This document shows positions 4,070-32,602 of a DNA stretch of 53,035 bases, in pieces. Position numbers and translations under genes: made by a program. How positions within the stretch are numbered: the stretch's first letter is position 1; each line of letters begins with the position of its first letter. The stretch comes from Sinomonas sp. ASV322. GTDB lineage: Bacteria > Actinomycetota > Actinomycetes > Actinomycetales > Micrococcaceae. The DNA is taken from NCBI RefSeq assembly GCF_030908245.1, contig NZ_JAVFJJ010000022.1, positions 1 to 53,035 of the forward strand, written 5' to 3'. The notes under the pieces were generated by a model that was not told where the DNA came from, ran no database searches, and saw only the letters and a list, made by a program, of their open reading frames with translations.

Positions 4070-4099
4070 TAGACAATCTGTATACAGCTCGTCTACAGT
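4070..4099 (+). promoter_or_regulatory. Promoter with GntR-type palindromic operator
   Basis: A perfect 10-bp palindrome CTGTATACAG occupies 4078-4087. Its core TGTATACA is the classic operator of FCD-type GntR regulators (VanR/FadR group). It lies between a possible -35 (TAGACA, 4070-4075) and a possible -10 (TACAGT, 4094-4099), 18 bp apart. Repressor binding would block the promoter of the operon that begins at 4218 and contains its own FCD/GntR gene at 5650. The promoter boxes are weak matches; the palindrome is exact. Confidence 0.6.
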
Positions 4100-4217
4100 G
4101 TGAATGCAGTCGCGATCCGCCCTCACGGGACCGCCAGCACAGGGATCGCCACCGCCGTCGATCACTGCCCTTCCTTCCTTTCCTTCCCCCAGCCTTCCGT
4201 CCGAGTCGGAGGAACCC

Positions 4218-5576
4218 ATGACCAACCTGACCCAAGAGCACGTCGGCACCCGAAAGCACACGAGCATGCCCGCGGTCGCGGCGTCCAGCCTCGCCGGCAC
4301 CGCCGTCGAGTGGTACGACTTCTTCCTCTACGGCACCGCCGCAGCGCTCGTCTTCAACAAGCTCTACTTCCCCGTCTCCGACTCGTTCGTGAGCACGATG
4401 CTTGCCCTCGGCACGTTCGCGGCCGGCTTCCTCGTCCGCCCGCTGGGCGCGCTCGTGCTGGGCCACTTCGGGGATCGGCGCGGCCGCAAGTCGACGCTCG
4501 TCGCAAGCCTCCTCCTCATGGGCATCGCGACCGCGCTCATCGCCGTCATCCCGCCCTACGCGGCGATCGGCATGGCGGCGCCGCTCATCCTCCTGTTCCT
4601 CCGCCTCGTCCAGGGCTTCGCCCTCGGCGGCGAATGGGGCGGGGCCGTCCTGCTCGTGTCCGAATACAGCGACACGAGCACGAAGCGGGCATTCTGGGCC
4701 TCGTGGCCCAACGTCGGGCCGCCACTCGGCAACCTCCTGGCCGCCGGCGTCCTTGCAGTGCTCTCCGCGACGATGCCGCAGGCCGCGTTCCTCGGGTGGG
4801 GATGGAGGATCGCCTTCGGCCTCTCCGCCGTCCTCGTCATCATCGGGCTCGTGCTGCGGCTCTACGTCCAGGAGACGCCGCTCTTCGCGGCGTCACAGGC
4901 AAAAGCACACAGCCAGCGGGCCCAGCATGCGCAGCAGGGCAAACTCCCGCTCGCCATCCTCTTCCGACGGAATTGGCGGGAAATCCTCATCGCGGCAGGC
5001 TGCCGAATGGGCGAGAACGCGGGTTTCTACATTTATTCGCTGTTCATCATCACCTACCTCGGCGAGGCCCTGAAGGTCGACAAGCAGCTGGGGCTCAACG
5101 CCGTCATGATCGGCCAAGGCGTGGCCGTCGTCGCAATCCCCGCGCTCGCGGTCCTCGCCGACAGGATCGGCCGGAAGCCGATCTATCTCGGCGCCTCGAT
5201 CGCAACCGTCGTCTGGGCCTTCGCCTTCTTTGCGCTCCTCGACACGCGCCAGCCGGGCCTCATCGTGCTCGCGGCCGTCGGCGGGCTCCTCATCTTCGCC
5301 GCGTACAGCTCGGTGATCGGCGCCTTCTTCTCGGAGCTGTTCCCGACCGATGTCCGCTACAGCGGGACGTCGGTGGCCTACAACCTCGCCTCGCTCGTGG
5401 CCGGCTCGTTCGCCCCGCTCATCGCCCTTGCGCTCTATCACGCGTTCGGCACCGGAATGGCCATCGGCGTCTACCTCGCCGCCATGGGCGCCATCTCGAT
5501 CGTCTCCGTGCTCTTCGCGAAGGAGACACGGGACGTGAAGCTGAGCGACCTCGACACGGCTCGCGTACCGTCGTGA
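4218..5576 (+). CDS. MFS transporter, metabolite:H+ symporter (MHS) family
   Basis: This is a 452-residue, 12-helix transporter. The start SLAGTAVEWYDFFLYGTAAALVF and the loop-2 motif GDRRGRKSTL are typical of the MHS branch of the major facilitator superfamily (shikimate, alpha-ketoglutarate, proline/betaine, dicarboxylate transporters). The second GxxxDRxGRKP motif, as ADRIGRKPIYLG, sits mid-protein after the central loop. ATG at 4218 is chosen for its GGAGG site; an in-frame ATG at 4104 would add an implausible Ser/Pro-rich leader lying in the promoter. It is the first gene of the operon running to the flavin reductase, so it probably imports the organic-acid-like or heterocyclic substrate of that pathway. 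Confidence 0.9.
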   Translation: MTNLTQEHVGTRKHTSMPAVAASSLAGTAVEWYDFFLYGTAAALVFNKLYFPVSDSFVSTMLALGTFAAGFLVRPLGALVLGHFGDRRGRKSTLVASLLLMGIATALIAVIPPYAAIGMAAPLILLFLRLVQGFALGGEWGGAVLLVSEYSDTSTKRAFWASWPNVGPPLGNLLAAGVLAVLSATMPQAAFLGWGWRIAFGLSAVLVIIGLVLRLYVQETPLFAASQAKAHSQRAQHAQQGKLPLAILFRRNWREILIAAGCRMGENAGFYIYSLFIITYLGEALKVDKQLGLNAVMIGQGVAVVAIPALAVLADRIGRKPIYLGASIATVVWAFAFFALLDTRQPGLIVLAAVGGLLIFAAYSSVIGAFFSELFPTDVRYSGTSVAYNLASLVAGSFAPLIALALYHAFGTGMAIGVYLAAMGAISIVSVLFAKETRDVKLSDLDTARVPS

Positions 5577-5649
5577 GCCACAGGGTGCCCCGCCGCGGCG
5601 AGGCTGCGCCGGGCACCGCCAAGACCATCCAGGAGAACCGAGGACAACG

Positions 5650-6324
5650 ATGAGCATCTTCCAGAAGCCCGCCCAGACGGCGCCGGAGACCGCCTACCTC
5701 TGGCTGAGGCAGGAGATCTCATCCCTTCCGTGGGATCAAGAGGCGTTCCTGAGCGAGAACTCGATCGCCGAAGCATCGGGCATCTCGCGCACCCCGGTCC
5801 GCGAGGCGCTCCTCCGCCTCGAGGCCGCGGGCCTCGTCCGCCGGGTTCCGCACAAGGGGGCCTTCGTTCCCGCGCTCACGGGCCAGGACATCGACGCCAT
5901 GATGGAGGTCCGCCGCGTCATCGAGGACTGGGCGGCGCGCAAGGTCACCGCCGCAGGGCTGCCGGGACCGGAGCTTGAGGAGTTCCTCGAGCAGCAGGCC
6001 GCGGCGCTCGGCGATCCGGTCGCGTTCATCGAGCGCGACATCCGCTTCCACCAGTGCATCGTCGCGGCGGCGGGCAACCCGGTCTTCGAAGAGGTCTACG
6101 AGTCCCAGCGGTTCAAGCAGCTCCGTATGGGCGTGAAGGCCATCCTCGACAGCGACGGCCGGAGCGATCACGTGGTCGCAGAGCATCGCGCGATCGTCGA
6201 GGCGATCCGCAGCGGCGACCCCGAGCGCGCCTCGGCCGCGATCCGTGGCCACCTCGACACCACTCTCACGGTGCTCAAGGCCCCGCGCACCCCCAGTCCG
6301 ACCCCACCGATCGCGGCGCCCTGA
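5650..6324 (+). CDS. GntR/FCD-family transcriptional regulator
   Basis: This is a 224-residue regulator. Residues 10-75 form the winged helix: SENSIAEASGISRTPVREAL is the signature of GntR helix-turn-helix domains. The rest is the all-helical FCD ligand domain with the metal or carboxylate-binding pattern (about D-x3-H in ERDIRFHQ, then H in VVAEHRAIV and H in IRGHLDT). FCD members usually sense carboxylic acids. It is second in the catabolic operon with a GAGGA ribosome site. The perfect TGTATACA palindrome in the operon promoter is the expected target, suggesting autoregulated repression relieved by a pathway metabolite. Confidence 0.92.
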   Translation: MSIFQKPAQTAPETAYLWLRQEISSLPWDQEAFLSENSIAEASGISRTPVREALLRLEAAGLVRRVPHKGAFVPALTGQDIDAMMEVRRVIEDWAARKVTAAGLPGPELEEFLEQQAAALGDPVAFIERDIRFHQCIVAAAGNPVFEEVYESQRFKQLRMGVKAILDSDGRSDHVVAEHRAIVEAIRSGDPERASAAIRGHLDTTLTVLKAPRTPSPTPPIAAP

Positions 6325-6358
6325 CGGGCCGCGGAGACCAATCACCAAGGAGCAACGC

Positions 6359-7156
6359 ATGGACATCTCCCTCGTCCAGCTGTCCAGCCCGGACAGCGAG
6401 ACGCAGGCGGAGCGCATCGACCGCGCCGAAGCCATCCTGCGCGCCCAGGCCGGGGCGGACCTCATGGTCCTCCCCGAGTTGTGGAGCGCGGGCTACTTCC
6501 ACTTCGACCAATACCCCGACCTCTCGGAGACCCTCGAGGGAGGCGCCACGGTGGCGATGTGCGCCGCCGTCGCCCGTGATCTTCGGGCCCACGTCCACGT
6601 GGGAAGCATCGTCGAGCGCGCGGCGCACGGCGCCCTCCGCAACACGTCCGTGCTCCTCGGTCCGGACGGCAGCGTTGTCCACGAGTACTCGAAGATCCAC
6701 GTCTTCGGCTACCAGTCCCTCGAGGCCGGGCTCCTCACGCCCGGCGCGTCGCTCCCGGTCGCGGCTGCGCCGTTCGGCCGCGTTGCGGGAATCACGTGCT
6801 ACGACCTCCGGTTCCCCGGGCTGTGGTCTGAGCTGAGCGTGCGCGGCGCAGAGATCGTCATCGTCCCCGCGGCGTGGCCGGCCGCGCGCCGCGAACACTG
6901 GCGGCTCCTGACGTCAGCTCGCGCCGTCGAACATCAGGTCTTTGTGCTCGCGTGCAATGCCGCGGGAGTCCAGGAGGGCGTTGAGCTTGGCGGCGCGAGC
7001 CGCGTCGTCGATCCCACCGGCCGCGTCCTCGCCGAAGCGGGCGACGGCGACGAGGTGCTCCGCGCGTCCATCGACCCGAGCCTTGTCCAGACCACGCGAG
7101 ACGAGTTCCCGGTCATCGCGGACCGGCTCCCCGACTACGCGAGCCTCTCGCACTGA
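6359..7156 (+). CDS. Nitrilase-superfamily amidohydrolase
   Basis: This is a 265-residue carbon-nitrogen hydrolase. The Glu-Lys-Cys triad is visible: VLPELW (Glu near residue 39), EYSKIHVFG (Lys) and GITCYDLRFP (Cys). The length and motifs fit the omega-amidase/Nit2-like or C-N amidase branches rather than true nitrilases, so it likely hydrolyses an amide, formamide or carbamoyl group. ATG at 6359 follows AAGGAG. It sits between the regulator and the DUF2848 gene in the catabolic operon, implying that the substrate releases or contains an amide nitrogen during breakdown. Confidence 0.88.
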   Translation: MDISLVQLSSPDSETQAERIDRAEAILRAQAGADLMVLPELWSAGYFHFDQYPDLSETLEGGATVAMCAAVARDLRAHVHVGSIVERAAHGALRNTSVLLGPDGSVVHEYSKIHVFGYQSLEAGLLTPGASLPVAAAPFGRVAGITCYDLRFPGLWSELSVRGAEIVIVPAAWPAARREHWRLLTSARAVEHQVFVLACNAAGVQEGVELGGASRVVDPTGRVLAEAGDGDEVLRASIDPSLVQTTRDEFPVIADRLPDYASLSH

Positions 7157-7197
7157 TTCTCCTCACGACCACTTCAATGACGAACGGAGCCGCACGA

Positions 7198-7881
7198 GTG
7201 CAGACCGACATCCAGACCCTCGCGTTCACGATCGCGGGAACGGGCGAGACCATCGTTCTCGACGACTTCACCGCGATCGTCGCCGGGTACACAGGCAGGG
7301 ACGCGGCCGCCGTCCAGCACCATATCGACGAACTCGCCGCGATCGGCGTCGCGCCGCCGCCCGAGGTCCCCATGTTCTACCCGGTCGAAAGCTCCTCGGT
7401 GAGCACGGCGCCGTCGTTCGCCGTTGCCGGAGCGGAGACCTCGGGCGAGATCGAGCCTCTCTACATCCGCCATGGCGGCCGTTACTACCTCGGCATCGCC
7501 TCGGACCATACGGATCGCCGGCTCGAGACCGTCGACATCGGCGACTCGAAGCGGGCCTGCCCCAAGCCGGCCTCGCGCGCCGTCGTCCCCGTGCCCGATC
7601 TCGACGCGCTCTCGCTCGACGGCGCGCGGGCACGCTCGTGGGTCGACGGGCGCCTCTACCAGGACGGCACGCTCGACGGCCTGCGGACGCCGGCCGACGT
7701 CGTCGAACGCTTCCTCGCGCGCACCGGCCTCGGTGACCGCGACTTCGTGTGCCTCGGCGGGACGCTCCCGCTCATCGGGGGCGAGTTCGCCTACGGGGCC
7801 GAATGGCGCCTCGAGCTCGCCCTCGCCGACGGCACGACCCTCGACCACACGTACACCATCACGAAGGGAAACCAGCCATGA
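7198..7881 (+). CDS. DUF2848 family protein (fumarylacetoacetase-fold-like, function unproven)
   Basis: This is a 227-residue protein matching the DUF2848 family by pattern: IVAGYTGRD near the start, a HIDELAAIGVAPPPEVPMFY segment, the conserved GIASDHTDRRLE and a late GGTLPLI. Members are found with catabolic genes and are thought to resemble fumarylacetoacetate hydrolase-like enzymes, but no reaction is established to my knowledge. The GTG start at 7198 is favoured by GGAG 8 nt upstream; ATG at 7177 would add seven residues with a poor ribosome site. Its stop overlaps the next start by 4 bp (ATGA), so it is translationally coupled to the monooxygenase. Confidence 0.8.
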   Translation: MQTDIQTLAFTIAGTGETIVLDDFTAIVAGYTGRDAAAVQHHIDELAAIGVAPPPEVPMFYPVESSSVSTAPSFAVAGAETSGEIEPLYIRHGGRYYLGIASDHTDRRLETVDIGDSKRACPKPASRAVVPVPDLDALSLDGARARSWVDGRLYQDGTLDGLRTPADVVERFLARTGLGDRDFVCLGGTLPLIGGEFAYGAEWRLELALADGTTLDHTYTITKGNQP

Positions 7882-9383
7882 GGACTGGCGATCAATACAT
7901 CAAGACCCTCAACGACGGGCGCACCGTCCTGATCGACGGCGAGGCCGTTGAGAACGTCGCCGAGCACCCGGCCTTCCGCAACGTCGCGAACACCGTCGCC
8001 GAGCTCTTCGACATCGCTGCTGATCCCGCGAACGGAATGCAGTACGACAGCGAGGAGATCGGCGCGCCTGCCAACCTCGTCTTCAGCATCCCGCGCACCC
8101 CGGAGGAGCTGCGCCGGCGCCGCGCCGCCGTCGAGCGCTGGGCCAAGCACACGCACGGCTGGGTGGGGCGCAGCCCCGACCACGTCGGCACATTCTTCGC
8201 CGCGTTCGCCGCGCACCCGGAGGTGTTTGCGAACCCGAATGACCCCGAGGGCCTGACGCGTGATTTCGCGGGCAACCTCCGGCGCTACTACGAGCGCATC
8301 CTCCGCGAGGACCTCTACGTCTCCTATGCGATCATCCCGCCGCAGTATTCGCGGGCGACGACGGCGTCCGGCTGGGAGGGCGACTTCATCCAGGTCGGCG
8401 TCGTGGGCGAGACCGAGGAGGGCCTCATCGTGCGCGGCTCGCAGATGCTCGCTACGGGCGCGGCGATCGCCGACGAAGTCTTCGTGACGTGCATCAAGCC
8501 CCTCGGCCCGGACGACGTGGACTTCGCGATCAGCTTCGCGCTGCCGGCGGCGACGAAGGGCCTCAAGTTCCTGTGCCGCCGCCCGTACGGCCCCGAGACG
8601 TCGAGCGAGTTCGACTACCCGCTCACCACGCGCTACGACGAGCCGGACGCGCTCGTGATCTTCGACGACGTCCTCGTCCCGTGGGACCGCGTCTTCATCG
8701 ACCGCGACACCGATGCGCTGCGCCGCCAGTTCTTCGACACGGGCGCGCACGCGCTCGGCAACTGGCAGGCCCAGACCCGCTTCACCGTGAAGCTCCAGTT
8801 CATCGCCGCCGTCGCCCGCAAGGTCACGCAGGTCAACGGCACGGACCGAATCCCCGGCGTGCAGGAGAAGCTCGGCGAGCTCGCGGCGATCGTCTCCTCC
8901 GTCGAGTCCGCGCTGCTCGCGGCCGAATACACCGCCGTCCCCGACTCGTCAGGGATGCTCGTGCCGGGCAAGCGTTCGCTCTACGGCGCGATGGGCCTCC
9001 AGTCCGAGACCTACCCGCGCGTCATCAATATCCTGCGCGACCTCGTGGGCGGCGGGGTGCTCCAGCTCCCCTCGGGTGTTGCGGACATGAAGAGCCCGAC
9101 GACGGCGCCCGACGTCGAGCGCTACATCGCCTCGCCGGGCGTCCCGAGCGAGGAGCGCATCAAGCTCTTCCGGCTCGCGTGGGACATCATCGGCTCGGAA
9201 TTCGCGGGCCGGCACCAGCAGTACGAGCTCTTCTACGCGGGCGCCCCGTTCGTGGTGAAGGGGGTCTACACGTACCGCCACTACGGCTACGAGGCCCAGG
9301 TCGCGGAGCTCGATGAATGGCTCGCAGGCTATTCGATCGACGGCCGCGCGTCGTCGTCCGACCGAGTCGGAGAGGCGAACTGA
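7878..9383 (+). CDS. HpaB-family FADH2-dependent monooxygenase
   Basis: This 501-residue protein belongs to the 4-hydroxyphenylacetate 3-hydroxylase (HpaB/HpaH) family, which shares the acyl-CoA dehydrogenase fold and uses free reduced flavin to oxygenate its substrate. Marks are RTGDQYIKTLNDGR at the start, the helix with RYYERILREDLYVSYAIIPPQ, and the C-terminal IGSEFAGRHQQYELFYAGAP segment lining the active site in the family. Length is normal. The partner reductase is two genes downstream at 9743. Nearby genes lack the extradiol dioxygenase and other meta-pathway enzymes of the usual homoprotocatechuate route, so the substrate is probably not 4-hydroxyphenylacetate. Members of the wider two-component flavin monooxygenases also attack N-heterocycles. 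Confidence 0.9.
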   Translation: MRTGDQYIKTLNDGRTVLIDGEAVENVAEHPAFRNVANTVAELFDIAADPANGMQYDSEEIGAPANLVFSIPRTPEELRRRRAAVERWAKHTHGWVGRSPDHVGTFFAAFAAHPEVFANPNDPEGLTRDFAGNLRRYYERILREDLYVSYAIIPPQYSRATTASGWEGDFIQVGVVGETEEGLIVRGSQMLATGAAIADEVFVTCIKPLGPDDVDFAISFALPAATKGLKFLCRRPYGPETSSEFDYPLTTRYDEPDALVIFDDVLVPWDRVFIDRDTDALRRQFFDTGAHALGNWQAQTRFTVKLQFIAAVARKVTQVNGTDRIPGVQEKLGELAAIVSSVESALLAAEYTAVPDSSGMLVPGKRSLYGAMGLQSETYPRVINILRDLVGGGVLQLPSGVADMKSPTTAPDVERYIASPGVPSEERIKLFRLAWDIIGSEFAGRHQQYELFYAGAPFVVKGVYTYRHYGYEAQVAELDEWLAGYSIDGRASSSDRVGEAN

Positions 9384-9384
9384 C

Positions 9385-9741
9385 ATGGCGAAGCCGGAAT
9401 TCGAGTTCGGCCCGTCGACGGCGGTCGAGTTCACGCCGTGCAACCCGCCCATCGAGGGGCTTTCCGAGGCGATCCTCGCTCGGGACGATTCGAGCGATGC
9501 CGTGACGCGCATCCTCAGGTTCGAGCCCGGCACGGACACGTCCCCGAATGGGGCCTTACGCCACGACTTCTGGGAAGAGGTGTTCATCTTCGAAGGCTCG
9601 TTCGTGGACCTGCGGCTGAACAAGACGTTCCGTGCCGGGGACTGGGCCACGCGCCCGCCTGGCATGGAGCACGGCCCGTGGGTCTCCCGCGAGGGGGCCA
9701 AGATGTTCGAGGTCCGCTATTACCAGAACGGAGGCGAGTGA
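9385..9741 (+). CDS. Cupin domain protein
   Basis: This is a 118-residue single-domain cupin. The first motif contains RHDFWEEVFIFEGSF and the second GDWATRPPGMEHGPW, giving potential metal ligands His, Glu and His as in ChrR-like cupins. Possible roles are an isomerase, lyase or small dioxygenase in the pathway, or a protective or regulatory metal-binding protein; nothing in the sequence decides. It begins 1 bp after the monooxygenase stop and ends 1 bp before the flavin reductase start codon, so it is inserted tightly between the two components of the oxygenase system. Confidence 0.85.
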   Translation: MAKPEFEFGPSTAVEFTPCNPPIEGLSEAILARDDSSDAVTRILRFEPGTDTSPNGALRHDFWEEVFIFEGSFVDLRLNKTFRAGDWATRPPGMEHGPWVSREGAKMFEVRYYQNGGE

Positions 9742-9742
9742 G

Positions 9743-10267
9743 GTGGCCGTCCCAGCGGTCTTCGTCGAGCCGGACGGAGCGGCGATGCGCCGTACGATGG
9801 GGCGCTTCCTCACGGGAGTCGCCGTCGTGACGGCCGAGCATGAGGGCGAGCAGGTGGGGATGACGATCAACTCCCTCACGTCGATCAGCCTCGAGCCGCC
9901 GATCCTCATGATCTCCCTGAACTTCGCCACGCGTACCGGGGATGCCGTCCTCGGAAGCGGGAAGTTCGCGATCTCGATTCTCGGGGTCAAGCAGGAGGCT
10001 GTCGCTCGGCAGTTCGCCGTGCGCGGCGGCGCGCGCTTCGAGGCCGGCGACTTCGACACCACCGACGGCGGGCTGCCCGTCATTGCGGGCGCGCTCTCCC
10101 AGGCGGAGTGCAAGGTCGTCAACCACTACACGATCGGCGACCACGAGGTCGTGTTCGGCCAGGTAGTCGCGAGCCGCTTTCGCGACGGGGATCCGCTCGC
10201 CTTCTACTCTGGGAAGTTCGGGGCCTTCCGCGACTTCAACCACGACGCCGTACCCTGGATGTTCTAG
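9743..10267 (+). CDS. Flavin reductase (HpaC-like)
   Basis: This is a 174-residue flavin reductase-like FMN-binding split-barrel protein. The MGRFLTGVAVVTA start, the GMTINSLTSISLEPPILMISL strand pair and a late GDHEVVFGQV strand are all diagnostic. It would use NAD(P)H to supply FADH2 or FMNH2 by diffusion to the HpaB-like oxygenase upstream. GTG at 9743 has GAGGCGAG upstream; ATG at 9784 is an alternative that would still keep the whole fold. It is the last gene of the operon, followed by a strong hairpin. Confidence 0.9.
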   Translation: MAVPAVFVEPDGAAMRRTMGRFLTGVAVVTAEHEGEQVGMTINSLTSISLEPPILMISLNFATRTGDAVLGSGKFAISILGVKQEAVARQFAVRGGARFEAGDFDTTDGGLPVIAGALSQAECKVVNHYTIGDHEVVFGQVVASRFRDGDPLAFYSGKFGAFRDFNHDAVPWMF

Positions 10268-10497: not shown

Positions 10498-11571
10498 ATG
10501 ACCACTGCTTCCGACGCTATCCTCAGCACGACGGCGGCAACGCAGGCAGCGCCGACTGCCGCCGCCGCATCCACCGGCCACGCCATTCTGGACACTGCCC
10601 GCGAACAGGTGCTGCGCCGCGGCAAAGGGCTGAGCGAGGCCCAGATCCTCGAGGTTCTTCGCCTCCCGGACGAGGCGATTTCCGCCGCGCTCCAGCTCGC
10701 GCACGAGGTCCGGATCGAGCACTGCGGCGAGGACGTCGAGGTCGAGGGCATCGTCTCGATCAAGACCGGCGGTTGCCCCGAGGACTGCCACTTCTGCAGC
10801 CAGTCCGGCCTGTTTGATTCGCCCGTGCGCGGCGTATGGCTCGACATCCCGGAGCTCGTGAAGGCCGCGAAGGAAACGGCTGCGACGGGCGCGACCGAGT
10901 TCTGCATCGTCGCCGCCGTCCGCGGACCGGACGTGAAGCTCATGAACCAGATCAAGTTCGCGATCGATCGCATCAACGCCGAGGTCGAGATCAACATCGC
11001 GTGTTCGCTCGGCATGCTCACGCAGCGGCAGGTCGACCAGCTCACGGAATGGGGCGTCCATCGCTACAACCACAACCTCGAGACCGCTCGCAGCTACTTC
11101 CCCGAGGTCGTCACGACGCACACGTACGAGGAGCGCCTCGATACGTGCGCCATGGTCAAAGAAGCGGGCATGGAGCTGTGCTGCGGTGCGCTCATCGGTA
11201 TGGGCGAGAGCGTTGAGCAGCGCGCCGAGCTCGCCGCCCAGCTCGCGGCGCTCGAGCCGGATGAGGTCCCGCTCAACTTCCTCAACCCGCGCCCGGGAAC
11301 CCCGCTCGAGAACCAGCCGATCATGGACGGCAAGGACGCCCTGCGCGCCATCGCGGCGTTCCGGCTCGCGATGCCCCGCACCGTGCTCCGCTACGCGGGC
11401 GGCCGCGAGCTGACGCTCGGCGATCTCGGCACTCGGGACGGGCTGCTCGGCGGGATCAACGCCGTGATCGTGGGCAACTACCTCACGACGCTCGGCCGGC
11501 CCGCGACCGCAGACCTCAACCTCCTTGTGGAGCTCAACATGCCCATCAGGGAACTCCAGAAGACCCTGTGA
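10498..11571 (+). CDS. bioB: Biotin synthase BioB
   Basis: This is a 357-residue radical SAM enzyme that inserts sulfur into dethiobiotin. The CxxxCxxC motif is [13 protein letters not shown] with Cys93, Cys97 and Cys100. Other family marks are the [17 protein letters not shown] lead-in, [15 protein letters not shown] and the late [13 protein letters not shown]. It starts at ATG 10498 after CTGGAGG. Its immediate partner is bsaP, as in mycobacteria and related actinobacteria. It is the first gene of a six-gene operon for biotin synthesis. Confidence 0.97.
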
Positions 11572-11587
11572 TGTTGAGGTCACTCTG

Positions 11588-11806
11588 ATGAACGCATTCT
11601 TCTGCGCCCACTGCGGCCAGCCCGCCGCGCACGAGCCCGCCCAAGCGGGCGGAAGCACGCCGTGGTCCGTTCACGCGCGCTGTGGGGAGCGCCTCGCGAT
11701 GGAGCCGCCGCGCTACTGCGCCGAGTGCGGGCGCCGCATGAAGGTGCAGGTGACGCCGCTGGGCTGGAGCGCCGAATGCTCGCGGCACGGGAGCCTGACG
11801 CCATGA
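11588..11806 (+). CDS. bsaP: Biotin synthase auxiliary protein BsaP
   Basis: This is a 72-residue cysteine-rich protein directly after bioB. It has six cysteines (6, 9, 32, 44, 47, 64), including two CxxC pairs (FCAHCG and YCAECG), and the C-terminal [11 protein letters not shown] typical of the family. In Mycobacterium the equivalent gene is needed for biotin synthase to work, apparently by helping with its iron-sulfur cluster. The start ATG is 16 bp after bioB, and its TGA overlaps the bioA ATG by 4 bp, so its supply is tied to both neighbours. Small size means it is easily missed by annotation. Confidence 0.88.
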
Positions 11807-13125
11807 ATCTGATCAACCGGGACCGCGCGTCCCTGTGGCACCCGTACGCGCCAGCCTCGCCGACGCTTCCGCTGTGGGAGGTCGAGGAGGCGAGCGGCGT
11901 GACGCTCCGCCTCAAGGACGACGACGGCGCGCGCCACGAGGTGGTCGACGCGATGTCCTCCTGGTGGTCGGCGATCCATGGCTACCGCCACCCCACGCTC
12001 GACGACGCCGCCCGGCGCCAGCTCTCCCGATTCAGCCACGTCATGTTCGGCGGGCTCACCCACGAGCCCGCGGTGGAGCTCGCCGAGCGCCTCCTTGCGA
12101 TGGCCCCGGCGGATCCGTCGCACGCGCCGCTCGGCCGGGTCTTCCTGGCCGACTCCGGCTCGGTGTCTGTCGAGGTCGCGCTCAAGCTCGCCGTGCAGTA
12201 CCAGTCGGCCGTCGGCAGACCGCGGCGACAGCGGATCCTGAGTATCCGGGGCGGCTACCACGGCGACACGACCGGCGCGATGTCCGTGTGCGACCCCTTG
12301 GACGGCATGCACGCGACGTTCGCCGGCCTGCTCTCGCACAACGTGTTCGCCCCGCGTCCGCCCGGCGCGGCCACCGCCACCCCGGAGGGCATCGGCGCGT
12401 GGCGCGATGCGGTCGACGGGCTCGCCCGGATCCACTCGGACGAGCTCGCGGCGATCATCGTAGAGCCCGTGCTGCAGGGCGCGGGCGGCATGTTCGTCTA
12501 CCCGTCGGAGTGCGTCAGGGCCCTGCGGGAGATCGCGGACCGCCACGGGCTCCTGCTGATCCTCGACGAGATCGCGACAGGCTTCGGCCGCACGGGCGAG
12601 CTGTTCGCGGCGAACCACGCCGGGATCGTTCCGGACATCCTGTGCGTCGGCAAGGCCCTCACGGGCGGGTACCTCACGCTCGCCGCCATGCTGTGCAACG
12701 ACGAGATCGCGCGCACTGTCTCCGCGGGCGGGGCCGGTGCGCTCCTGCACGGCCCGACCTTCATGGCCAACCCCCTCGCGTGCGCCATCGCTAACGCGAG
12801 CCTCGGGCTCATCGGTGACGGCGGGTGGCGGCACGACGTGCGGCGCATCGGTGCGGGGCTCGCAAACGGCCTCGCACGCGCCGCGGCGTACGACGGCGTG
12901 GCGGACGTGCGCACGATCGGTGCCGTCGGCGTCGTCGAACTTGAGCGCGCCGTCGACGTGCCCGCGCTCACGCGCGCCGCCATCCGCCGGGGCGTCTGGA
13001 TCCGGCCGTTCCGCAACCTCGTCTACACAATGCCGCCGTACATCTGCACGGATGCGGACGTCGCGACGATCGCTGAAGGAATGCTCGGGGCCATTGCCGA
13101 AATGCACGCCGAGGTGCGCGCATGA
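11803..13125 (+). CDS. bioA: Adenosylmethionine-8-amino-7-oxononanoate aminotransferase BioA
   Basis: This is a 440-residue class III, PLP-dependent aminotransferase that converts KAPA to DAPA using S-adenosylmethionine as amino donor. The start with SLWHPYAP, then [16 protein letters not shown] and [12 protein letters not shown] are BioA-specific. PLP-site features are the [13 protein letters not shown] segment, [11 protein letters not shown], and the Schiff-base lysine at about 284 in [11 protein letters not shown]. Late residues [13 protein letters not shown] bind the substrate carboxylate in the family. It overlaps bsaP and bioF by 4 bp each, indicating translational coupling. Confidence 0.96.
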
Positions 13126-14279
13126 GCCGCTCGATGACCCGCTGGCTCGAGCAGCAGGCGAGCGTCAGGGTACGCCGCGGACTGGTCCGCCGGCCGGTCG
13201 CGCGGAGGGCTGGGGAGCCGGGGATCGACCTCGCGAGCAATGACTACCTCGGCCTCGCGCGCGACCCGCGCCTCGCGGTGGCCGCCGCCGAGGCCGCGTG
13301 GGAGTGGGGAACCGGCGCCACCGCATCCCGCCTCGTGGCCGGGACCACGGAGCTCCACCTCGCACTCGAGGCCGAGCTCGCTTCCTTCGTCGGCATGAAG
13401 GCGGGCCTCGTGTTCTCCTCGGGCTACCTCGCCAACGTCGGCGTGATCACGGCGCTCGGCGGGCCCGGCACGCTCATCGTCGCGGACGACCAGTGCCACG
13501 CCTCGATCGTGGACGGCTGCCGCCTGAGCCGGTCCCGCGTCGAGACCTTCGTGCACCACGATATTGACGACGCCGCGCGCCTCCTCGCGGGGCGCAGCGA
13601 ACCCCGGGCGATCATCGCCGTCGAGTCCATCTACAGCGTGGGCGGGGACGCGGCGCCTTTGGCAAGCCTGCTGGACCTCGCCGAGGAGCACGACGCCGTG
13701 CTGCTCGTCGACGAGGCGCACGGCCTCGGCGTCGCGGGCGTAGACGAGTTTGAGGGCCGCGGGGCAGTTGCCGGAACCGCGCTCGCGGGGAACCCGCACG
13801 TCGTCGTCACCGCGACGCTGTCCAAGGCACTCGGCAGCCAGGGCGGGGCGGTCCTCGGTTCGGCCGCCCTGCGTGAGCACCTCGTCAACCGCTCGCGCGG
13901 GTTCATCTTCGACACCGCGCTCGCCCCGACGTCCGCGGCCGCTGCTCTTGCGGCCCTCGGCATCGTGCGGGAGGAGCCGTGGCGGGCCGCACGCGTGCGC
14001 GCGAACGCCGCGGCCCTCCTCGCCGGCCTCGGGGCGGGGGCGGGAGCTGAGCCATCCGCCGCGGGCGCCGTGCAGTCCATCGCGATGCCCTCCGCGGACG
14101 CCGCCGTGGCCGCGGCCCGCGCTGCGGCACATGACGGGGTGAGGGTGGGCTGCTTCCGACCTCCTTCGGTCCCCGACGGCATCTCCCGGCTGCGGCTCAC
14201 CGCCCACGCCGGCCTCGCGCCGTCGGACATCGGCCGCGCCATCGCCGTTCTGCGTGGCGTCCTCGAGGAGGCATCGTGA
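13122..14279 (+). CDS. bioF: 8-amino-7-oxononanoate synthase BioF
   Basis: This is a 385-residue alpha-oxoamine synthase joining pimeloyl-CoA or pimeloyl-ACP with alanine. Motifs are SNDYLGLARDP, GATASRLVAGTTELHLALE, the DEAHGLGVAG loop and the PLP lysine at about 235 in TATLSKALGSQGG. Length is normal for BioF rather than for ALAS or KBL. It overlaps bioA by ATGA and bioD by GTGA. The pimeloyl donor is not made by any bioC/bioH-like gene in this operon; the P450 at its end is the only candidate here. Confidence 0.95.
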   Translation: MSRSMTRWLEQQASVRVRRGLVRRPVARRAGEPGIDLASNDYLGLARDPRLAVAAAEAAWEWGTGATASRLVAGTTELHLALEAELASFVGMKAGLVFSSGYLANVGVITALGGPGTLIVADDQCHASIVDGCRLSRSRVETFVHHDIDDAARLLAGRSEPRAIIAVESIYSVGGDAAPLASLLDLAEEHDAVLLVDEAHGLGVAGVDEFEGRGAVAGTALAGNPHVVVTATLSKALGSQGGAVLGSAALREHLVNRSRGFIFDTALAPTSAAAALAALGIVREEPWRAARVRANAAALLAGLGAGAGAEPSAAGAVQSIAMPSADAAVAAARAAAHDGVRVGCFRPPSVPDGISRLRLTAHAGLAPSDIGRAIAVLRGVLEEAS

Positions 14280-14983
14280 AACTGCCCGGAATCGTTGTGG
14301 TCACCGGGACGGACACCGGCGTCGGGAAGACCGTGACGACGGCGGCGCTCGCCGCGGCGCTGCGGCGGCGCGGCAGGACCGTCGCCGTGTACAAGCCCGT
14401 GCAGACCGGGAGCGTCCACGGCGATTCCGACATCTCCGAGGTCCGCCGACTGGCAGGCGCCGTGACGGCCGCCGCGGGGGCCGTGTTCAGCGAGCCGCTC
14501 GCGCCCCGCCCCGCCGCGGAGTTCGACGGCGCTGCCCTGCCGCACCTTTCCGAGCATGTGCGCCGGATTCGCGAACTCGCCGACGCGCACAATCACGTCG
14601 TGGTCGAGGGCGCGGGCGGCCTCCTCGTCGAGCTCGATGACGACGGCGCCACCGTTGCCGACCTCGCCCAAGCCGTGGACGACGCAGCGCACGACGGCGG
14701 TACCCGGCCCGGCGTCGTCGTCGTCACCCGGGCGGCGCTCGGCACGCTCAATCACACCGCACTCACCCTTGAGGCGCTCGAGCGGCGCGGACTGCGCGTT
14801 CTCGGGCTCGTCCTCGGCGTGCGCCCGCGGAAGCCGGGCCTTGCAGAACGGGACAACATGCTTCGGCTCGCGAGTGGCGACGTCCCGCTCGTTGGCGCCA
14901 TCCCGGAAGGGGCGTCGGATTTGACGTCCGAGGAATTCAGCGAGCGGGCGGCCGTGTGGCTTGCGGGGCTGGTGCCGGCATGA
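14276..14983 (+). CDS. bioD: Dethiobiotin synthetase BioD
   Basis: This is a 235-residue ATP-dependent carboxylase that closes the ureido ring of DAPA. The P-loop GTDTGVGKT spans residues 11-19, followed by YKPVQTG (substrate/ATP contact) and VEGAGGLLVELDDDG in the middle. The GTG start overlaps the bioF stop by 4 bp, and its own TGA overlaps the P450 ATG. Length and motifs are normal. Confidence 0.95.
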   Translation: MKLPGIVVVTGTDTGVGKTVTTAALAAALRRRGRTVAVYKPVQTGSVHGDSDISEVRRLAGAVTAAAGAVFSEPLAPRPAAEFDGAALPHLSEHVRRIRELADAHNHVVVEGAGGLLVELDDDGATVADLAQAVDDAAHDGGTRPGVVVVTRAALGTLNHTALTLEALERRGLRVLGLVLGVRPRKPGLAERDNMLRLASGDVPLVGAIPEGASDLTSEEFSERAAVWLAGLVPA

Positions 14984-16155
14984 GCGCCGTATCTCCCAGT
15001 GCCTCGTCCCCCCGCGCCGCATCCACCAGCGCTGCACGCCTCAGCCCTTTCCGCGTGGTGCGGGACCCCGGGCTCGTCCGGGACGTCCTGCACCGGCCGG
15101 GGGACTTCAGCCCGGCGAATGCGCTCGTCGCGGTCACGCCGCTCACGGGGTCATCGCTCCGTGTGCTGCAGCGCGCGCGCTTCGCGCTCCCGCCGATTCT
15201 GGCGAGCAACGACACCGACTCCCATGCGGGGGTCCGCAAGGTAGTCGCGGGCTTCTTCACCCCGGCGACCGTCGCGGCGATCGAGCCCCGGATCCGCGAG
15301 CTCGCCCGGGAGTCGGCGCGGACGGCGGCCGCGCGGCTGAGCCAGCCCGCCGGTGCCCTCGAAGGCCGCGTCGACCTCGTGGACACCGTCGCCGCGCTTC
15401 CGCCTGCCGTCCTCATGCTCGAACTGCTCGGGCTCGACGTCCCCGCCGACGAACTCGGGGCGCTCAAGGCGTGGAGTCGCGAATCCCTCGAGCTGTTCTG
15501 GGGTTGGCCGGACCCCGAGCGGCAGCTCGAGCTCGCCCGCAGCGCGGCAGCGTTCTATGACTGGCTCCGGGACCTCGTGCGTCGGTCGGTCGCGGCGCGC
15601 TCGCGGAACCTGTTCGCGGCCCTCGATGAGCACGGCCTCACGACACCGGAAATCTGCTCGCTCGGCTACTTCCTGCTCATCGCGGGGCAGGAAACCACCA
15701 CGCAGCTCATCAGCTCCGTGCTGTTCCGGGCGCTGGAGGGATCGTGCCCGGTCACATGGGCGGAGGCATGTGATCCTGCGCGGGCGCGCGAGGCGGTGCG
15801 GCACGTCCTCGCGACCGAGTCTTCGGTGCCGACGTGGCGCCGAGTGACGCCTCGCGAGACGACGCTCGGCGGGGAGACGATCCCCGCCGGTGCAGAGATC
15901 CTGCTGGAGCTGACCGGCAACCACGGGGTGGGCGGCCCCGGCCGCCCGACGGACTACGGCCTCGCGTTCGGCTCGGGGATCCACCGCTGCCTCGGCGCGA
16001 AACTCGCGGAACTCGAGGCCGCCGTCGTCGTCCAGGAGACCGCCGCCGCACTCCCTCGCATCCGGCTCGCCGATGCCTCCCCCGAGTGGCTGCGGCTGCT
16101 CTCGTTCCAGGCGCCGCGGGCAGTCACGGTCAAAGGCCCTACGGGGGACTCATGA
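14980..16155 (+). CDS. Cytochrome P450 in the biotin operon (BioI-like role possible)
   Basis: This is a 391-residue soluble P450. The heme loop is FGSGIHRCLG (330-339) with Cys337 as thiolate ligand; the I-helix carries AGQETT (235-240); the K-helix ExxR pair is Glu271 and Arg274. The stretch between the K-helix region and the heme loop (NHGVGGPGRPTDYGLAFG) is several residues shorter than in typical bacterial P450s, which affects the meander. It overlaps bioD by 4 bp, so it is translated as part of the biotin operon. By analogy with Bacillus BioI, it could cleave a fatty acyl-ACP to a pimeloyl unit for BioF; this is inference from position only. No ferredoxin or reductase gene is adjacent. 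Confidence 0.88.
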   Translation: MSAVSPSASSPRAASTSAARLSPFRVVRDPGLVRDVLHRPGDFSPANALVAVTPLTGSSLRVLQRARFALPPILASNDTDSHAGVRKVVAGFFTPATVAAIEPRIRELARESARTAAARLSQPAGALEGRVDLVDTVAALPPAVLMLELLGLDVPADELGALKAWSRESLELFWGWPDPERQLELARSAAAFYDWLRDLVRRSVAARSRNLFAALDEHGLTTPEICSLGYFLLIAGQETTTQLISSVLFRALEGSCPVTWAEACDPARAREAVRHVLATESSVPTWRRVTPRETTLGGETIPAGAEILLELTGNHGVGGPGRPTDYGLAFGSGIHRCLGAKLAELEAAVVVQETAAALPRIRLADASPEWLRLLSFQAPRAVTVKGPTGDS

Positions 16156-27947: not shown

Positions 27948-30900
27948 TCAGCGGCTCATGCGCCGCCGAGCGAACAGGAGGAGCCCGGCGCCCACGAGGA
28001 GCAGCCCAATGCCCGCGATCGTGACGACGATCGGCAGGCCACCGCCCGTCATGGCGAGGGAGGCGGCAGACGCCGTCCCGGTGTACGTGTAGGCAGCCGG
28101 AGCCGAAGAGCCTCCGGGTCCCGTCACCACGACGTCTACGCTGCCCGCGGCGTGCGCGGGCATCGTGATTGAGATCGTGCCGTCATTGTTGACTGTGAAC
28201 GGCACTTGCGTCCCATCCACGGTCACGCCGTTCGCGCCAGCAAGGTCCGAGCCGGAGATCACCGCGGTGTTTCCGCCGTCCGCCGGACCGGTATCAGGGT
28301 TGAGGCCCGTGATCGCCGGGGCCGCGACGTAGGCGTAGGCCGTCGCGGGCGACGTGCCGCCGGGCGTCGTGACCGTCACGTCAACCGATCCGACCGCGTG
28401 GGCCGGGCTGAACAACGTGATCGTCCCGTCCGGGTTCACCGTGAACTGCGTGGTGCCCGCCGCCGCGGCGCCCGGCGTGAACGTCGTGCCGCCGAAGTCG
28501 ACCGACGTCGCGCCTCCGAAGTTGGAGCCGGCGACGACGACGGAGGTTCCGCCCGCCGTCGGCCCCTGGTTCGGGGTGAGCGACGCGACCACAGGTGCTG
28601 CGACGAACGTGTACGTCGCGGGACCGGTTGTGCCGCCGGGCGTGGTCACGGTCACGTTCGCTGCGCCGGCCGCGTGGGCCGGGGTGAAGAGCGTGATCGT
28701 CCCGTCCGAGTTCACCGTGAACTGCGTGGTGCCCGCCCCGGCGGTGCCCGGCGTGAACGTCACGCCGCCAAAGACGACCGACATCGCGGCCGCGAGGTTG
28801 GAGCCCGAGAGCGTCACCTGTTGGCCGCCGGCCGCCGGGCCCGCGTTCGGCGAGACGGCGAGGTTCGCCGGCGCCGCGACGTACGTGTACGGTGCGGGCG
28901 ACGTGGTGCCGCCCGATGTCGTGACCGTTACGCTGATGCCGCCAGCCGCGTGGGCCGGGGTGAACAGCGTGATCGTCCCGTTCGGGTTGACCATGAACGA
29001 GGTGTTCCCCGCCGCGGCCGTGCCCGGCGTGAACGCCGTGCCGCCGAAGCTGACCGACGTCGCGCCCGCGAGGTTGTCACCCGAGAGCGTCACCTGCTGG
29101 CCGCCCGCGAGGGGGCCTGCATTCGGGTTGAGCGCGAGGTTCGCTGGGAGCGCCTCGTACGTGTAGGTCGCGGGTGCGCTCGTGCCACCAGGAGTCGTCA
29201 CCGTCACCGGCGCGCCCCCGGCCGCGTGGGCCGGCGTGAACAAGGTGAGCGTCCCATCCGGGTTCGCCGTGAACGAGGTGTTGCCGGCCGCCGCGGCGCC
29301 CGGCGTGAACGTCACGCCGCCGAAGTCGACCGACGTCGCGCCCGCGAGGGCGGTGCCGGAGACGGTGACCTGTTGGCCGCCCGCGACCGGGCCGGCGTTC
29401 GGGGTGAGCCCGACGTTGGCCGGAGCGGCGACGTACGTGTACGGCGCAGGCGCGGTCGTTCCGCCCGGAGTGGTCACGGTCACGGGCACACCGGCGGCCG
29501 CGTGGGCCGGGGTGAAGAGCGTGATCGTCCCGTTCGGGTTCGCCGTGAACGAGGTGTTGCCGGCCGCCGCGGTGCCCGGCGTGAACGCCGTGCCGCCGAA
29601 GTCAACGGCCGTCGCGCCCGTGAGGCCCGTGCCCGAAAGCGTGACCTGCTGGCCGCCCGCCGTCGGACCCTCATTCGGGCTCAGCGTGAGGTTCGCCGGA
29701 GCTGCGACGTAGGTGAACACTCCCGGCCCGCTCGTGCCGCCCGGGGTCGTCACGGTCACGTTGACCGGTCCCGCGGCGTGCGTCGGGGTGGACACGGTGA
29801 GCGTTCCGTTGCCGTTGTCGACGAAGTGGGTCGCGTCCGCCGTCGCGCCCGGAGCCAAGGTCGCCCCGCCCCAGGCGATCGACGTCGCCCCTGCCAGGGC
29901 CGTGCCGGAGAGCGTCACCGATGTGCCGCCTGCCGTTGGGCCTGCATTCGGGCTCAGGGCAAGGTTCGCCGGAGCGGCGACATACGTGTACGGAAGGGGT
30001 GCGCTCGCACCACCCGGGTTCGTGACCGTGACGTTCACGCCACCGGCCGCGTTAGCCGGGGTGAAGAGCGTGAGCGTCCCGTTCGGGTTGACCGTGAACG
30101 AGGTATTCCCCGCCGCCGCCGCGCCCGGCGTGAACGTCGTGCCACCGAAGGCGAGCGACGTTGCCGACGCGAGATCCGAACCGGACACGGTCACCTGCTG
30201 GCCGCCGGCCACCGGGCCCGCATTCGGGCTCAGGGCGAGGCTCGCCGGAGCGGCGACATACGTGTACGTCGCGGGCGCCGAGCTGCCGTTCGCGTTGGTC
30301 ACGACGACGCCGACGGGTCCCGCCGCGTGCGGGTCAGTGACGAGCGTGAGCGTGTTGTTGCCGTTGTCGACGAAATGCGTCGGGTCCGGGATCAGCCCCC
30401 GCGTGTAGGTCGCGCCGCCGAACGTCACCTGCGTTGCCCCGGTGACGTCTGTACCCGAGATGGTGACGGTCTGGCCGCCGCCGACCGGACCCGAGTTCGG
30501 CGCCAGCGAGAGATTCGCCGGGATCGGGAGGAAGGTGAAGGTCGCGGGAGCCGAGACGCCCTGCGGCGTCGTCACCGTGACGTTCACGGGCCCGCTCGCG
30601 TGGGCGGCCGTGACGAAGGTGATGGTCCCGTCGGGGTTGACGACGAACTGGCCCGCCGCGGGCGTTGGCCCGGCAGCCGGGGTGTACGAGGTTCCGGCCA
30701 CGGTCACGGCAGTCGCGCCCGTGAGGTTGAAGCCCGTCATCGTCACGCTGGTTCCGCCGGCCTCAGGCCCCTGGATCGGGGACAGTCCCGAAATCTGGGG
30801 GACGAGACTCCGGACGTTCGGGCCGACTTGGGCCATGCCGAGATCGACCGTGCCGAGGCTTCCGCCGGATCCGAGGGTAGCCCGGACGGCGACTTCCTTG

Positions 30901-32480: not shown

Positions 32481-32602
32481 ACTTCCCCCTCTCAGGGCGG
32501 GGCTCCCCTTAAGCCCCGCACTGGCTTGGATAGTAGAGATATCTTCTGACATACACAACTCGGGCTCGGCCGCGTTTGTCGCATTGCGCCCTCAGGCGTC
32601 GG

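Follow-up and report, generated by a model that had tools for sequence, protein, structure and literature searches.

The seven-gene operon described here lies in a 53,035-nucleotide stretch of the Sinomonas sp. ASV322 genome (contig NZ_JAVFJJ010000022.1 of assembly GCF_030908245.1), referred to below as the window, and several described systems come close to it. The pyridine-ring part of the pAO1 nicotine pathway (DHPH, PKC, NIT) comprises, in the available portions of its descriptions, a monooxygenase, a proposed hydrolytic ring opening and then a nitrilase-fold omega-amidase, NIT, which converts 2-oxoglutaramate to 2-oxoglutarate (PMC6214936). The kpi cluster of Arthrobacter IN13, which acts on 4-hydroxypyridine, is described in the available portion of PMC7356986 as providing a flavin monooxygenase, ring cleavage, a deformylase, an FAH-family enzyme and a FadR-type regulator. 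A pyrrole-2-carboxylate monooxygenase was placed with HpaB in group D, the two-component enzymes, in Table 1 of PMC6165268, the section of that source used here. The oxygenase and reductase of the window share fold and family with HpaB/HpaC, the 4-hydroxyphenylacetate 3-monooxygenase. Analysis of the operon suggested that its products take up a small N-heteroaromatic acid and break it down, a reading to which we give a little under even odds (a probability of roughly 0.45). The firmest new result is the assignment of its DUF2848 protein, by structural model, to the FAH fold. The features of the operon are as follows.

4070–4095, no strand: operator-like nested palindrome of 26 bases, TAGACNNNYTGTATACARNNNGTCTA, a putative GntR/FCD binding site 122 bases 5′ of the importer gene
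4218–5576, + strand: MHS-type MFS importer (metabolite/H+ symporter family); TIGR00883 410.7 bits, slightly below the cut-off of 443.45
5650–6324, + strand: GntR/FCD transcriptional regulator; Pfam GntR 54.6 bits, FCD 89.7 bits
6359–7156, + strand: nitrilase-fold amidase, omega-amidase-like (2-oxoglutaramate amidase); CN_hydrolase 161.9 bits
7177–7881, + strand: DUF2848 protein with a predicted FAH fold and a candidate metal site (E91/E93/D110); Pfam DUF2848 191.4 bits, above cut-off
7878–9383, + strand: oxygenase of a two-component flavin monooxygenase, HpaB clade; HpaB_N 300.9 bits, HpaB 199.8 bits
9385–9741, + strand: small metal-type cupin with invariant H60, E64, E65 and H96; Pfam Cupin_7 above cut-off
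9743–10267, + strand: flavin reductase of the two-component monooxygenase; Flavin_Reduct 129.6 bits

The seven genes (4218–10267) are separated by gaps of 73, 34, 20, −4, 1 and 1 bases, and the importer also matched Pfam Sugar_tr and MFS_1 above cut-off. An earlier account made from the letters of the window alone (the sequence-only reading) had described an uncharacterised catabolic operon of seven genes in one direction with tiny gaps; the gaps, from 73 to −4 bases, and the Pfam matches to the families it had named bear this out. It began the operon at 4070, the base with which the 26-base operator-like site also starts. The seven-gene set is real, conserved and, judged by its anatomy, regulated.

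The HpaB-family oxygenase and the separate flavin reductase, both with Pfam families above cut-off and encoded in one operon, have the make-up of a group D enzyme. The oxygenase scored below the curated HpaB cut-offs (TIGR02309, 355.9 against 480.2 bits; TIGR02310, 287.9 against 885.2 bits), and the FerA, StyB and HsaB models matched the reductase below their own cut-offs. An alignment with Thermus HpaB showed that R100 is kept (R98), that Y104 is replaced by H102 and that H142 is replaced by Y150. In the Thermus enzyme these three residues reportedly hold the phenol group of the substrate, from the 2007 work of Kim et al. The R98/H102/Y150 pattern was present in 54/54 members of the clade checked, one of which (L058) lies outside a DUF2848 locus. 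Relatives of the oxygenase with structures in the PDB are mostly named as phenol-type hydroxylases; judged by the alignment, the window enzyme is without the phenol-hydroxylase active site, and its own site points elsewhere. The 4-hydroxyphenylacetate route, which the sequence-only reading had also discounted, was rejected on the changed active site and the route genes missing from the operon.

The sequence-only reading had left DUF2848 as a protein of unassigned reaction, a description that need not hold, given the fold of its structural model. Fumarylpyruvate hydrolases are among the closest, tied structural models for the predicted FAH fold. Enzymes of the FAH superfamily carry an ExE…D metal site and a lysine. 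Among 59 DUF2848 sequences E91, E93 and K125 are invariant and D110 is kept in at least 90%. Residues E91, E93 and D110 align with the E-x-E and D of YcgM in a profile match that is not significant (E 0.16), and K125 falls on the YcgM lysine two residues before the KAFD lysine; E91, E93 and D110 form a candidate metal site. At E values up to 0.001 the protein matched only DUF2848 in Pfam and nothing in NCBIfam, and hence no known FAH family model. By analogy with FAH enzymes, DUF2848 may be a tautomerase, hydratase or C-C hydrolase acting on a 2-oxo acid or its enol. In the open-licence literature, a scope that excludes most subscription papers, neither a mention of DUF2848 nor a description of such an operon was found.

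The catalytic triad of the amidase (E40, K112 and C147) was located by motif and gives the Glu-Lys-Cys set of a nitrilase. Its best PDB sequences were yeast YLR351C and Nit2, enzymes that act on 2-oxo-acid amides. A search of 829 plasmid records with the nitrilase returned, as its top three rows, an operon of the same type, Embleya and Natrinema, and the next ten rows were one protein, 38.0–38.7% identical, on Arthrobacter-type plasmids including pAO1. The pAO1 protein (38.7% identical to the window amidase) is encoded one gene away from 2,6-dihydroxypyridine 3-monooxygenase, and we take it for NIT on the strength of the genes listed in a legend of PMC10494377, the part of that source used. 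The deaminated glutathione amidase model (cut-off 355) gave 175.8 bits for the nitrilase of locus L046 and 116.7 bits for the window amidase. In a tree of 35 rows most nitrilases of HpaB-free loci, that of L046 among them, grouped together, with those of two HpaB-positive loci (L040 and L112) inside or beside that group, and the L132 nitrilase fell outside it with that of L142. The sequence-only reading had expected an amide or a formamide to be released by oxygenation; YLR351C, Nit2 and the pAO1 NIT suggest a 2-oxo-acid amide as the substrate more than a formamide.

The cupin keeps H60, E64/E65 and H96, but it has L at position 58, where the HxH motif usually has its first histidine. Its Foldseek matches include the dioxygenases DAD and Dke1, and the fold matches do not separate an isomerase from a dioxygenase.

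A search of 194 genomes of the family for the HpaB clade (E up to 1e-120) revealed nine places in eight genomes, and a search for the cupin (E up to 1e-10) revealed nine places in the same eight. All nine adjoin a DUF2848 match, scored in a set of 197 genomes that was drawn slightly differently and in which 28 genomes had some such match; their adjacency was the conserved clustering that the sequence-only reading had proposed to look for. The search profiles were partly built from these same loci, and the informative results are that no other genome matched and that the matches adjoin one another. The gene arrangement exceeds chance. Its distribution is patchy: among 396 genomes drawn from the phylum and scored for at most three candidates each, only the window's own genome had an HpaB of this clade (E 1e-120). 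One genome (G038) carries the operon twice, on separate contigs (L042 and L043).

Named loci (L numbers) were picked by DUF2848 similarity. The HpaB clade was present in 36 of the best 80 of at least 566, accompanied by the cupin in 36/36, the reductase in 35/36 and the amidase in 32/36; by record title these are 25 Actinomycetota, eight Pseudomonadota, two Bacillota and one Verrucomicrobiota metagenome-assembled genome (MAG). When 111 DUF2848 loci were scored, the cupin was found in 52/52 HpaB-positive against 3/59 HpaB-negative loci, the reductase in 51/52 against 0/59, and an amidase within the fetched stretch in 46/52 against 41/59. This count leaves aside L058 (HpaB without DUF2848), the later loci L154 and L157, and L187, and its entries are not independent, since loci were picked by DUF2848, near-identical ones were counted (L041/L045) and L043 and L066 are the same place; P values computed from it are not reliable at face value. 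The amidase of the HpaB-positive loci belonged either to the nitrilases or to the amidase-signature (AS) enzymes, which are not homologous to them; where found in Pseudomonadota sets, some of which have a branched-chain-type ABC importer, it was of the AS type, and that of L034 scored 603.6 bits with PRK07056, above the cut-off of 447. As two unrelated families fill this place, the amide step seems to be kept while the enzyme changes. That the cupin was restricted to loci with an oxygenase was considered and dropped, because L078, whose contig ends 1.6 kb upstream, and L187 have cupin and DUF2848 with no oxygenase seen nearby.

The 26-base palindrome had one match in the window and none in 100 shuffles. 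Allowing up to three mismatches, it was found once in five and twice in three of the eight operon-bearing family genomes, and a reversed-pattern control gave none. Each of the eight has one site 5′ of the operon (G038, with its two operon copies, has two). In G047 and G091 no importer stands beside the operon, and the additional site is 95 bases ahead of an importer, unlinked to the operon, that is 79% identical to that of the window; in G071 the importer is likewise not beside the operon, yet a second site was not found. Because unlinked importers share the site, the importer, the regulator and the enzymes can be grouped as a single regulon, and the GntR/FCD protein probably binds the site. 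In L173 the unlinked importer that shares the site adjoins a DUF3100 membrane protein. In the window the site is also close to the start, not exactly placed, of a divergent AraC gene.

Other hydroxylases appear to stand in for the HpaB pair. DUF2848, cupin and amidase occur without HpaB in L124 (a Herminiimonas MAG) and L080 (Streptomyces), which encode single-component flavin monooxygenases that are 45% identical to each other; the nearest PDB sequences to that of L124 were PnpA and HspB. A haloarchaeal megaplasmid of Natrinema encodes DUF2848, cupin and nitrilase together, with a molybdenum hydroxylase about 5 kb away, which is less surely a stand-in than the two flavin monooxygenases. Also encoded in this region are an FAD-type subunit and an aldehyde dehydrogenase close to 2,5-dioxovalerate dehydrogenase (640.8 bits, below the cut-off of 750). 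It is a tentative and rather doubtful proposal that bacteria and haloarchaea share an undescribed pathway that opens the rings of N-heteroaromatic acids, with DUF2848, cupin and amidase as its constant core, to which the HpaB pair, a single-component flavin monooxygenase or a molybdenum hydroxylase is docked. It is given lower weight because the Natrinema molybdenum hydroxylase is about as close to the carbon monoxide (CO) dehydrogenase large chain (2e-109) as to quinoline 2-oxidoreductase (2.4e-110) among PDB sequences.

If the operon degrades an N-heteroaromatic acid, the reductase would pass reduced flavin to the HpaB-like oxygenase, which would hydroxylate the imported ring, probably next to the nitrogen. 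The cupin would then tautomerise, hydrate or cleave the hydroxylated ring, yielding a 2-oxo-acid amide with an open chain, DUF2848 would handle the 2-oxo acid or enol, and the amidase would release ammonia to leave an acid of the tricarboxylic acid (TCA) cycle, in the simplest case converting 2-oxoglutaramate to 2-oxoglutarate. Hydroxylated at position 5, pyrrole-2-carboxylate would give a lactam equal in oxidation level to cyclic 2-oxoglutaramate. The simplest end product, 2-oxoglutarate, suits pyrrole-2-carboxylate, which is the single likeliest substrate that can be named, though itself rather unlikely. The data do not decide between this 2-oxoglutarate route and an ending in formylpyruvate. 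In favour of an N-heteroaromatic acid count the amidase kept in most HpaB-positive loci, the likeness of the nitrilase to the pAO1 NIT with its activity on 2-oxoglutaramate, the H102 and Y150 replacements, the stand-in hydroxylases, the placing of pyrrole-2-carboxylate monooxygenase in group D and the 5-oxoprolinase-type genes of some HpaB-free DUF2848 loci. Several observations weigh against an N-heteroaromatic acid handled in this way. No neighbouring gene names the substrate, and an FAH enzyme and a cupin are not obviously both needed if 2-oxoglutarate is the direct product. Six of the 52 HpaB-positive loci (five from Burkholderiales, and L079) have no amidase in the fetched stretch, and the AS amidase does not point to a 2-oxo-acid amide. 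The window amidase reached only 97.4 of the 249 bits of NCBIfam PRK10438, which we take to be YafV. In the nitrilase tree the pAO1 NIT was on a long, weakly placed branch (YafV was also long-branched), so the likeness is one of resemblance to an omega-amidase and not of membership. The closeness of the Natrinema hydroxylase to CO dehydrogenase counts in the same direction, as does a genome of the same class (G323) in which cupin, DUF2848, nitrilase, importer and regulator occur without HpaB or an L080-type monooxygenase in the 19 kb read.

A route of the 4-hydroxypyridine type, which we consider unlikely, would have HpaB hydroxylate beside a ring hydroxyl, the cupin cleave the ring as a dioxygenase, the amidase act as deformylase and DUF2848 split formylpyruvate into pyruvate and formate. 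This is the step order of the kpi route in the available text of PMC7356986 (monooxygenase, dioxygenase, deformylase, FAH-family enzyme), and it is consistent with the fumarylpyruvate hydrolases tied for closest to DUF2848, with DAD and Dke1 among the cupin matches and with the likeness of a stand-in monooxygenase to HspB, a hydroxypyridine monooxygenase. A large amidohydrolase of the KpiC superfamily, which recurs close to HpaB in seven loci (two of these being one place), also favours it, although not part of the window operon, as does the alpha/beta hydrolase at 2177–2899 on the opposite strand. The missing first HxH histidine of the cupin and an amidase that is omega-amidase-like and not deformylase-like argue against it. 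The KpiA, KpiB and KpiC families are absent from the seven genes, whose proteins had no match to pfam01494, pfam00561 or pfam01979.

The nitrogen might instead lie outside the ring, in which case the amidase would unmask an aromatic amide or anilide, HpaB would hydroxylate the freed phenol, the cupin would cleave the ring and DUF2848 would complete the route. The phenol-type names of the HpaB relatives of solved structure and the recruitment of an amidase from either of two unrelated families fit this, but two of the three phenol-site residues are swapped in all 54 sequences, and the amidase also accompanies DUF2848 in 41 of 59 HpaB-free loci, which places it beside DUF2848 and not ahead of the oxygenase; we judge it improbable. 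The sequence-only reading had the oxygenase open an N-heterocycle directly, with amidase, DUF2848 and cupin acting on the product. A nitrogen in the ring is also our best guess and the set does include an amidase, and flavin monooxygenases of another class (MHPCO and the pyridoxate oxygenases) open hydroxypyridine rings directly. We know of no HpaB-class enzyme that opens a ring, however, and the tight link of cupin to HpaB (52/52 against 3/59) suits a separate ring-opening or isomerising step right after oxygenation, which makes one-step opening very unlikely.

Other genes were seen around the set. Large amidohydrolases, YtcJ-like by eye, lie near it in three phyla (L039, L043, which is the L066 place, L084, L123, L136 and L142), accompanied in some of these loci by an APC permease and a TetR regulator. 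An IscS-type cysteine desulfurase stands beside or inside the set in ten loci from Burkholderiales (for example 3586–4812 of L136 and 7740–8981 of L124), nine of the ten with HpaB; the two that were scanned exceed the IscS cut-offs. UbiD-family decarboxylases lie no more than 5 kb from the set at three HpaB-type loci (L112, 3963–5357, matching PDB 6h6v at 2.7e-147; L084, 2854–4392; L079, 5022–6626) and hint at a heteroaromatic acid, but were given no weight because their subtypes differ. The L084 nitrilase is in two pieces (8627–8878) and the L065 cupin match (from 11168) stops early; these are possibly broken or misassembled. HpaB-free DUF2848 loci (L036 and many of L091–L141, mostly from Alphaproteobacteria) often carry an amidase together with a TRAP transporter, a putative hydro-lyase and a LysR regulator, and some have genes annotated as 5-oxoprolinase-type, with PxpABC-like ones named by eye; these TRAP-type loci probably represent a different pathway around DUF2848. 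A cupin search of viral contigs gave 74 pattern matches, none of which was confirmed, and a viral link of the set was dropped. In the window, the alpha/beta hydrolase gene (2177–2899, − strand) and then an AraC-type regulator gene (3012 to about 4000, − strand) are divergent to the operon. On its 3′ side (10498–16155) are a BioB-like radical SAM gene, genes that by eye look like BioA, BioF and BioD, and a P450-like frame that Pfam matches weakly. A frame of 1536 residues with ten IPT/TIG repeats (27948–32558, − strand) probably encodes a surface protein.

The analysis offers a predicted fold and a testable role for the Pfam family DUF2848, and draws attention to a clade of HpaB-like proteins whose annotation goes no further than the 4-hydroxyphenylacetate hydroxylase domain. 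Should the substrate prove to be pyrrole-2-carboxylate or a hydroxypyridine, the operon would supply candidate genes for the degradation of a ring whose genetics are thinly known.

Set against the closest systems, the operon is distinct from each. DHPH of pAO1 is a single-component enzyme, and the 16.8 kb of pAO1 read encoded no DUF2848, HpaB or cupin of the window family. The ring opener proposed for pAO1 is a cyclase-family protein (PMC6214936, in its available portion). HpaB/HpaC differ from the window pair in the curated cut-offs, which the window enzyme does not reach, and in Y104 and H142, which it has replaced, and the known ring-cleavage dioxygenase of the 4-hydroxyphenylacetate route is absent from the seven genes. 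In the kpi cluster KpiA is a pfam01494 enzyme, KpiB an alpha/beta hydrolase, KpiC of the amidohydrolase type and KpiD an ordinary FAH protein; a cupin is unmentioned in the available text of PMC7356986, and no HpaB is among the table rows read. Of the analogues with a formylpyruvate ending, the kpi route is, by that same text, the best documented. The Rhodococcus sp. pyrrole-2-carboxylate monooxygenase, compared by description alone (PMC6165268, the table cited above), is like the window pair in being a two-component enzyme of group D and acts on an N-heteroaromatic acid. Taken with these systems, the seven-gene set is probably a variant of aerobic N-heteroaromatic catabolism.

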